This document shows, piece after piece, positions 6,724 to 41,442 of a DNA stretch of 41,442 bases. The translations under genes and the position numbers were made by a program. How positions within the stretch are numbered: the stretch's first letter is position 1; each line of letters opens with the position of its first letter. The stretch is from positions 1 to 41,442 of the forward strand of contig CAIUUR010000098.1 of assembly GCA_903902345.1 (NCBI GenBank), written 5' to 3'. This DNA comes from an uncultured Geobacteraceae bacterium (lineage in GTDB: Bacteria > Desulfobacterota > Desulfuromonadia > Geobacterales > CAIOGM01). The notes under the pieces are model-generated. The model did no database searches. It was not told the DNA's origin and saw only the letters and a list, made by a program, of their open reading frames with translations.

Positions 6724-6945
6724 TTACTTGGCAGCCGGAGCAGCAGCTTCAGCAGGTTTTTCTTCGGCTTTCTTGGCTTTTTTGGCTTTCTTGGCTTTTT
6801 TCTTTGCAGGAGCTTTTTCTTCTTTTTTCACGTCGGCAGCAGCAGGAGCAGCAGCAGGAGCAACAACCGGCTCAGCGGCGCAAACGATTCCAGCGAAAGA
6901 AAGAGCAACGATAGCGGCAACAACGGCGGAGAGAACTTTTTTCAT
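6724..6945 (-). CDS. Small exported Lys/Ala-rich protein
   Basis: A 73-residue protein with a clear Sec signal (MKKVLSAVVAAIVALSFAG, cleavage near VCA-AE). The mature part is almost only Ala, Pro, Lys and Glu, with a run of KKAKKA units, so it is probably disordered and strongly basic. AAAGGAG lies 9 nt before the ATG. Such short AP/K-rich periplasmic proteins are common in Geobacter-like genomes; no function is known. It has its own promoter region at 6984-7011 and a terminator directly after the stop, so it is likely a single, possibly highly expressed gene. Confidence 0.75.
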   Translation of the reverse strand: MKKVLSAVVAAIVALSFAGIVCAAEPVVAPAAAPAAADVKKEEKAPAKKKAKKAKKAKKAEEKPAEAAAPAAK

Positions 6946-7142: not shown

Positions 7143-7172
7143 TTGACAACACGCGTAGGGTATTGATATACA
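7143..7172 (+). promoter_or_regulatory. Promoter of the riboswitch transcript
   Basis: A perfect -35 TTGACA (7143-7148) is followed after 18 nt by TATACA (7167-7172). A start near 7179 would place the whole GEMM aptamer at the 5' end of the RNA. Confidence 0.55.
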
Positions 7173-7194
7173 GATACCACAATCGAATTACACA

Positions 7195-7280
7195 ATGGAT
7201 ACACGATACTACTAAACCATCCGCGAGGGTGGGACGGAAAGCCTATTGGGTCTCACCGAGACAGCCGGGTTGCCGAAATA
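7195..7280 (+). promoter_or_regulatory. GEMM-I riboswitch, predicted 3',3'-cGAMP type
   Basis: The core matches the GEMM-I cyclic dinucleotide aptamer: CACG, then CTAAACC (7212-7218), a hairpin closed by CCATCC/GGGTGG with GCGA loop, GGGACGGAAAGCC, a second hairpin TGGGTCTCACCGAGACA and the closing GCCGGGTTGCCG. The nucleotide equivalent to Vc2 G20, which sets ligand choice, reads as A by my alignment (TACT before AAACC). A20 marks the Geobacter cGAMP-responsive subclass (GEMM-Ib); G20 would mean c-di-GMP. The 3' arm AGCCGGGTTGC is shared with the following terminator, so ligand binding should prevent termination (an ON switch). The first downstream genes are the two small envelope proteins at 7369 and 7756. 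Confidence 0.85.
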
Positions 7281-7314
7281 TCATACAGATATTGAAGCAA
7301 CTCGGCTTTTTTTT
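7263..7314 (+). terminator. Riboswitch-controlled terminator
   Basis: AGCCGGGTTGC (7263-7273) pairs with GCAACTCGGCT (7297-7307) with one G-U, followed by eight T. The 5' arm belongs to the aptamer, so the hairpin and the ligand-bound fold exclude each other. Confidence 0.85.
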
Positions 7315-7368
7315 ACCTACTCACCATGCGGCGCCAACTCGGCGGTATCACAAAAGGGGTAACATACC

Positions 7369-7698
7369 ATGAAGAACTGCAGTCGAAGCATTTCCGGCGC
7401 CATGATCTGCATGATTATTTTATTGACTGCATCTTTTGCACAATGCGAAACCGGACCCGTCCCGGGAAAGATATCCTCCGCCACGGGACAACGGATGAAA
7501 TGGAACTCCGTCGAAGAAATCATCAAGGAATTGGCCCTCCCCCGGGCTCAGCCAGTCACCAAGGTCGCAGATGGCCGGGACGGCGATGCGAAACTTCTGA
7601 GAGAGCTCCTGGACCAAAGTAACGGAGAACTGCGCGCCGCATGGTCTCCCCGTACCACACCCATGAAGCGTACCGGCTTGATCGCATCCAGGTACTGA
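7369..7698 (+). CDS. Small secreted hypothetical protein under riboswitch control
   Basis: A 109-residue protein not recognised by motif. An N-terminal hydrophobic segment (about residues 11-24, ending SFAQC) is a Sec signal; cleavage after FA is likely, and the cysteine context is not a good lipobox. The remainder is polar, with a helix-prone part (VEEIIKELALP, AKLLRELLDQSNGELRAAW). AAAGGGGT stands 8 nt before the ATG. It is the first gene after the GEMM-I riboswitch and its terminator, so its expression should follow the cyclic dinucleotide level. In Geobacter, cGAMP riboswitches often precede genes for extracellular electron transfer, but no haem motif (CxxCH) is present here. Confidence 0.6.
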   Translation: MKNCSRSISGAMICMIILLTASFAQCETGPVPGKISSATGQRMKWNSVEEIIKELALPRAQPVTKVADGRDGDAKLLRELLDQSNGELRAAWSPRTTPMKRTGLIASRY

Positions 7699-7755
7699 GG
7701 GGAGAGCGTTATGCTTTCCGTATGTGCATCAACTACGTTCACAAGGAGACATCCC

Positions 7756-7965
7756 ATGGAACCATTAGCCTTATTTTCTTCTCTCCTGGTGCTCTACTGC
7801 GGCTATGTGACCTACAGGGATTTGATTCGAACTCCGCGTAAGTCGGAGACGGTAAAAAGAGAGTCGGGACGACTGGGGCAGGCGGTGCTTCTCAGACCAA
7901 ATCTGGCGTCAAGTAGAACGCTTATGTCGGCGATGGGTGGAGGGCGAGCGTCGACCTCACGGTAA
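7756..7965 (+). CDS. Small single-pass membrane protein
   Basis: A 69-residue ORF with AAGGAG 7 nt before the ATG. Residues 4-20 (LALFSSLLVLYCGYVTY) form one membrane segment, followed by a basic, polar tail rich in Arg and Ser. It lies 57 nt after the first riboswitch-controlled gene in the same direction and no terminator separates them, so it is probably cotranscribed. No family recognised; coding status rests on the ribosome site, the hydrophobic start and position. Confidence 0.45.
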   Translation: MEPLALFSSLLVLYCGYVTYRDLIRTPRKSETVKRESGRLGQAVLLRPNLASSRTLMSAMGGGRASTSR

Positions 7966-41235: not shown

Positions 41236-41442
41236 GTAGAGTAGGGAGCCGGTGTTACCCTACCCCCCCCTCATCAAACCGTGCTTGGAGTTTTCCCCCA
41301 CACGGCTTTCCGATGTTCTTCACCGCAAGGCATGCGCAATCGATTCGGTAACCAGTCCTGGTCAATCGGGTTAAGGTCCCCAACAGGTATCCATCTCGCC
41401 TTACTTGGCCCAACAGTAGAGCTTCCTCTGTGGCGTCCTGAT
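41236..41442 (-). mobile_element. 3' end of a group II intron (domains V and VI)
   Basis: Read on the minus strand, 41308-41276 folds as domain V: AGCCGTG ... GAAA-containing loop ... GCACGGTTT, with the AGC triad, a two- to three-base bulge and the GUU partner. Domain VI follows (ATGAGGGGG, TAGGG ... CCCTACTC) and the intron would end near TCTAC at 41236. Upstream on this strand the frame 41442-41401 ends in TAA after LYCWAK and could be the tail of the intron-encoded reverse transcriptase, most of which lies outside. Splice-site position is approximate. A 12-bp direct repeat (GGGGGCATGGG-type) lies at 41205-41237. Confidence 0.55.

Follow-up and report, generated by a model that had tools for sequence, protein, structure and literature searches.

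A predicted cGAMP riboswitch upstream of a duplicated small membrane-protein gene in an uncultured Geobacteraceae bacterium

Introduction

What does a GEMM-I riboswitch control when the genes behind it encode two small envelope proteins rather than cytochromes? This question is raised by a locus within a 41,442-nucleotide stretch of DNA (here called the window) from an uncultured Geobacteraceae bacterium, whose metagenome-type assembly comprises 4.9 Mb in 568 contigs. In Geobacter sulfurreducens, the GEMM-Ib switches are ON switches. Their targets range from cytochromes to lipoprotein transpeptidases, pilus genes and "multiple hypothetical genes", and deletion of gacA lowers the expression of every one of them (PMC6456294). 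Here we analyze the leader, the two genes and their relatives in the order Geobacterales.

Results

The leader carries a GEMM-Ib aptamer and a competing terminator

As the original prediction had proposed, an Infernal search with RF01051 (c-di-GMP-I) recovered a GEMM-I aptamer in the leader (Table 1), with a score above the gathering threshold (E = 2.3e-6), a full-length alignment (model 1-87 of 87) and a competing expression platform behind it. Model position 11, which we take to be the equivalent of Vc2 G20 and hence the ligand-selecting position, aligned with A7211, which is unpaired and adjoins the P1b strand on its 5' side, in agreement with the earlier reading of A rather than G; the pairs beside it are C-G/U-G in place of G-C/C-G. 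This A assigns the aptamer to GEMM-Ib, with cGAMP as the predicted ligand. The riboswitch is an ordinary GEMM-Ib member, one more in a well-studied class.

The promoter and the terminator sharing the aptamer's 3' arm, both noted earlier, were also borne out. TTGACA (7143-7148) and TGnTATA (7164-7170) recur in each of the genus's four genomes (G000-G003), even in G001, where the aptamer is missing; a consensus promoter scan of the window did not list this promoter because its -10 is TATACA. The terminator hairpin (7263-7307) folds with -24.4 kcal/mol (z -6.7; none of 200 shuffles folded as well) and is followed by U8, and the whole leader gave a z of -4.7 relative to shuffled sequence. The 5' arm of the hairpin, 7263-7273, lies inside the aptamer and overlaps its 3' arm, so that terminator and aptamer are mutually exclusive, which suggests that the switch works in the ON direction.

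Table 1 Features of the riboswitch locus in the window
Feature	Position	Strand	Basis
Promoter: -35 TTGACA 7143-7148, extended -10 TGATATACA with TATACA 7167-7172, 18-nt spacer	7143..7172	+	kept in aligned upstream regions of G000-G003
GEMM-I (c-di-GMP-I) aptamer, RF01051, A20 (GEMM-Ib) type	7201..7277	+	cmscan, 47.5 bits vs gathering 35
Ligand-selecting base A (Vc2 G20 equivalent)	7211..7211	+	cmscan alignment, model position 11
Intrinsic terminator: 11-bp stem 7263-7273/7297-7307, 6-bp upper stem 7277-7282/7288-7293, U tract 7307-7314	7263..7314	+	RNA fold
Shine-Dalgarno AAAAGGGG of ORF1	7352..7359	+	read from sequence
ORF1, 109 aa, signal peptide and small, mostly low-confidence mature protein, genus-restricted	7369..7698	+	homologues in G001, G002, G003 (shortened)
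Shine-Dalgarno AAGGAG of ORF2	7743..7748	+	AAGGAG and CCATGGAACC context common to other copies
ORF2, 69 aa, one N-terminal hydrophobic segment, basic tail, MEP-YCGY family member	7756..7965	+	profile search, hhalign

A20 and G20 aptamers split into two putative regulons in the genome

The source genome contains nine GEMM-I matches, four with G20 (L001-L004) and five with A20 (the window aptamer, L006, the tandem L007/L008, and L009). According to gene labels assigned from CxxCH counts and inspection, the G20 aptamers lie in front of genes for a signalling protein (1331 aa), a protein of 1620 aa and a PilZ-like protein and, in one case, in front of an exopolysaccharide cluster, while the other four A20 aptamers precede multihaem cytochrome loci; the window holds the genome's only A20 switch without such a locus. 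The A20 and G20 aptamers are therefore coherently split into two regulons. L001-L003 are c-di-GMP-I-GGC aptamers (RF03167) of the same clan as the window aptamer and very similar to it in the core, but they have G at position 20 and lie ahead of genes for signalling, PilZ-like and other proteins, whereas the window aptamer has A20.

Among eleven GGDEF matches the active site could be read in ten, nine of which have the canonical Asp and one of which (L059) has the Hypr Ser with GGDDF. The latter is a predicted cGAMP synthase, since it shares Ser/GGDDF with GSU1937, the demonstrated second cGAMP synthase (PMC8835794). No orthologue of GacA (GHxxGS with GGDEF) was found in the source genome, which has the GSU1937 type only. 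In G001, where the aptamer is lost at this locus, L152 (G001:C140) encodes a GGDEY protein whose Hypr position is Ser (GHRIGS), a possible cGAMP synthase.

The earlier designation as cGAMP type is supported by A7211; the base itself is no proof of the ligand, as both c-di-GMP and cGAMP act on the OmcST GEMM-Ib riboswitch of G. sulfurreducens (PMC6456294). With that precedent, the lack of a detected GacA-type cyclase and about nine GGDEF proteins with canonical Asp, the aptamer might bind both ligands or respond to c-di-GMP, and the operon would belong equally to the biofilm (c-di-GMP) regulon. We consider this unlikely. Many A20 aptamers of Geobacter are selective, about 1200-fold in the case of pgcA (PMC6456294), exchanging A20 for G in Gmet_0970 swaps selectivity, which makes position 20 the main determinant, and the genome does encode the GSU1937-like enzyme.

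A non-cytochrome output is common among the sampled A20 aptamers

The two-gene output of the window contains no haem motifs, so the original prediction was right that the genes are not cytochromes; its suggestion of a new kind of output did not hold, because non-cytochrome targets are the majority in our sample and hypothetical genes are among the published ones. This sample covered about 3 kb downstream of 60 aptamers, 59 of them A20, and is biased in that nearly all were found by similarity to the window aptamer and genes were called crudely; at least three CxxCH motifs occurred downstream of only 12 of the 59. Other A20 targets in the sample, judged from their first residues, were hemerythrin-like, pilM-like and lipoprotein genes. 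The proposed search for the two proteins behind other GEMM switches found ORF1 nowhere in the sample and a relative of ORF2 in G108 alone. There, in another family of the order, an A20 GEMM-I aptamer (L108, G108:C190, 1656-1731) lies about 305 nt upstream of the family gene (2037-2309). We rejected it as a second riboswitch-controlled family member: this genome has 18 GEMM-I matches and no relative in its genus clearly has the gene, so a chance arrangement is likely.

ORF1 is restricted to the genus

Both open reading frames are real genes, as indicated by their Shine-Dalgarno sequences, their conservation in the genus and a dN/dS (NG86) of about 0.26-0.36 within the genus where dS is measurable (about 0.3 for ORF1). 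The start sites of both are conserved in the genus. The protein encoded by ORF1 has a conserved core, W.S.EEII ... DGD..LL.ELL.Q, after the signal peptide, and its relatives were found only in G001, G002 and, truncated, in G003. No homologue outside the genus turned up, whether with the single sequence or with a profile, in up to 141 genomes or in GTDB contigs, plasmids and viral contigs; weak matches in G035, G091 and G119 were discarded because they sit in unrelated reading frames. No Pfam or NCBIfam model reached its cut-off. The AlphaFold model (mean pLDDT 57) has two short helices following the signal peptide and no confident fold. In the G002 homologue (L012/L016, G002:C247), a segment of about 20 aa (ATTAVAD..GDGDPK) is duplicated internally.

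ORF2 belongs to a small membrane-protein family of the order

The original prediction had recognised neither protein. For the databases this was correct, and ORF2 too has no Pfam or NCBIfam match above cut-off; for ORF2 it was incomplete, as the gene has relatives across the order, including paralogues beside lexA and recA. A profile built from the four genus proteins was run against 141 genomes of the order. At E<=0.05 it matched small proteins in 69 of them, mostly one per genome and along an N-terminal stretch that all share, those near E 0.05 being the weakest and uncertain. When the genus set was compared, profile against profile (hhalign), with 17 further copies, the probability was 98.8 (E 1.4e-16) over residues 1-29, and these first 29 residues define the family motif MEPxxIFxxLVxYCGYLxxxD, from which we named the family MEP-YCGY. 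We regard ORF2 as a duplicated member of this order-wide, previously unnamed family. Its hydrophobic segment, starting at residue 4, has a mean Kyte-Doolittle value of 1.64, borderline for a membrane span (1.16 in G002, about 2.1 in other copies), and the product may be inserted in the membrane.

MEP-YCGY paralogues lie beside lexA and recA

In the genus, paralogues were located behind lexA at L093, L094 and L096 and before recA at L092, L095 and L097, the neighbours being assigned by TIGR00498 (190 bits) and TIGR02012 (569 bits), respectively. The lexA-adjacent protein has 74 aa at L093 (G000:C449:11500-15600), L094 (G000:C424:1-2600) and L096 (G002:C104); its gene lies 35-43 nt behind lexA at two of these loci, L093 and L096, and at L094 a DUF6504-like ORF separates the two genes. 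In several genomes from other families of the order (L100-L111 and others), the gene is flanked by a divergent NapH-like 4Fe-4S membrane gene on one side and by a convergent ttcA on the other; in the window's genus the copy of this NapH-like/ttcA type is followed by recA. What is unusual about the window switch is thus one respect only, that it governs a paralogue of a small membrane protein neighbouring lexA and recA.

The genes yneA and sosA adjoin lexA, and small membrane proteins in this position are often division inhibitors. By analogy of context, the MEP-YCGY family may have a stress-related, division or checkpoint-like role. Two papers (PMC13396833, PMC6851548) give further leads on lexA-adjacent small membrane proteins.

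Two sequence elements were considered as regulon signals and rejected. The lexA promoters of L093, L094 and L096 carry a TTTGAnTACTAAGnCAAA-like palindrome, for which relaxed matches were fewer than in a reversed-pattern control, and we therefore claim no regulon. Ancestral copies of the family have in common a conserved TGCGAC-n7-GTCRCA and TATGNT element, placed about 50 nt ahead of the start; the motif upstream of these copies had one exact match in the source genome, in front of the family gene itself, and since its other, one-mismatch matches were scattered, no DNA-damage regulon is claimed for it either. The LexA box GGTTN2CN4GN3ACC was absent from the window, lexA and recA loci. The window copy neither adjoins lexA nor has a LexA-type box, and lies behind the riboswitch promoter.

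ORF2 might nevertheless stand outside the riboswitch operon and be transcribed from a promoter of its own, handed down from the ancestral copy; near 7711, a TATGCT-like sequence looks similar to the -10 of those copies. This is improbable, because their conserved operator/promoter element (TGCGAC-n7-GTCRCA ... TATGNT) was not seen upstream of ORF2, and the gap of 57 nt between ORF1 and ORF2 yielded neither a promoter nor a terminator.

Riboswitch control is labile within the genus

Conservation of the two genes in relatives, on which the original prediction had made its case depend, was found within the genus; as a pair they occur in this genus only, and riboswitch control is not present throughout. 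Riboswitch and both genes are complete in two of the four genomes, that of the window and G002, and G002 keeps the order riboswitch-ORF1-ORF2. G001 retains the promoter and an intact pair, with no aptamer in the surrounding 15 kb. In G003 the aptamer scores just below threshold (34.1 bits) and its 3' "GCC" is altered; the terminator hairpin there is perfect and ORF2 is intact, but ORF1 is truncated. Absence in G001 and decay in G003 show that cGAMP control is labile in the genus and not strictly maintained, and ORF1 is genus-only and partly decaying.

These losses, together with the confinement of the pair to one genus and an ORF1 product with no detectable fold, would also suit a lineage-specific riboswitch cassette in decay that has no important function. 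We consider this improbable, since dN/dS is well below 1 for both genes, ORF2 is intact in 4/4 genomes and homologous to an order-wide family, and all elements are intact in the window and G002.

Other features were seen around the locus. A 73-aa exported, Ala/Lys-rich and weakly Asr-like (acid-shock) protein is encoded at 6724-6945 (-) of the window and also beside the G002 riboswitch locus. A group II intron domain (RF00029) lies at the window end (41236-41310, -), and in G002 a group II intron starts downstream of the riboswitch locus (L016, 2907-3028).

Discussion

We favour the reading that a cGAMP ON-switch was recruited to a duplicated copy of a small membrane protein from the DNA-damage neighbourhood, with a probability of roughly 0.75. 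It builds on the computed aptamer, A20, terminator, gene order, homology, paralogue contexts and predicted Hypr cyclase. Transcription would begin at a sigma-70-type promoter and produce a leader RNA that folds into the GEMM-Ib aptamer. With 3',3'-cGAMP bound, the aptamer would hold 7263-7273 and block the terminator, and RNA polymerase would read through into a presumably co-transcribed two-gene operon for the small exported ORF1 protein and the 69-aa, probably membrane-anchored ORF2 protein. The likely role is that of a copy of an envelope protein placed under cGAMP, that is, under contact or metal-respiration control.

The locus shares with the GEMM-Ib switches of Geobacter (GSU1761/pgcA, Gmet_0970; PMC6456294, PMC8835794), which belong to the same order, the Rfam family, A20, a short leader, a terminator using the aptamer's 3' arm and a predicted Hypr cyclase in the genome. 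It differs from them in that the output is a genus-specific secreted protein and a small membrane protein, not a cytochrome, the ligand is predicted, and this type of control has been lost in some close relatives. With the SOS-linked division inhibitors YneA, SosA, SidA and DidA, the common ground is a small protein with one predicted membrane segment (borderline in the window copy) and paralogues by lexA/recA; the comparison is one of size and gene context, as no sequence relation was seen and ORF2 has no LysM domain, and the window copy has riboswitch rather than LexA control.

A bolder proposal, which we offer tentatively and regard as rather unlikely, is that MEP-YCGY is a DNA-damage-linked envelope or division-control family of Geobacterales. 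In this lineage one copy would have left the lexA/recA neighbourhood and come under a cGAMP riboswitch, letting surface or metal-contact signalling act on division or the envelope by way of a small membrane protein of this kind. The checkpoint idea is directly testable, because the ancestral single copy is present in many genomes of the order, some of them probably from cultured organisms. The useful result is the controlled gene, a copy of an unnamed order-wide small membrane-protein family that has lexA- and recA-adjacent copies. If MEP-YCGY is a damage checkpoint, the locus would link cGAMP signalling to cell-cycle or envelope control.
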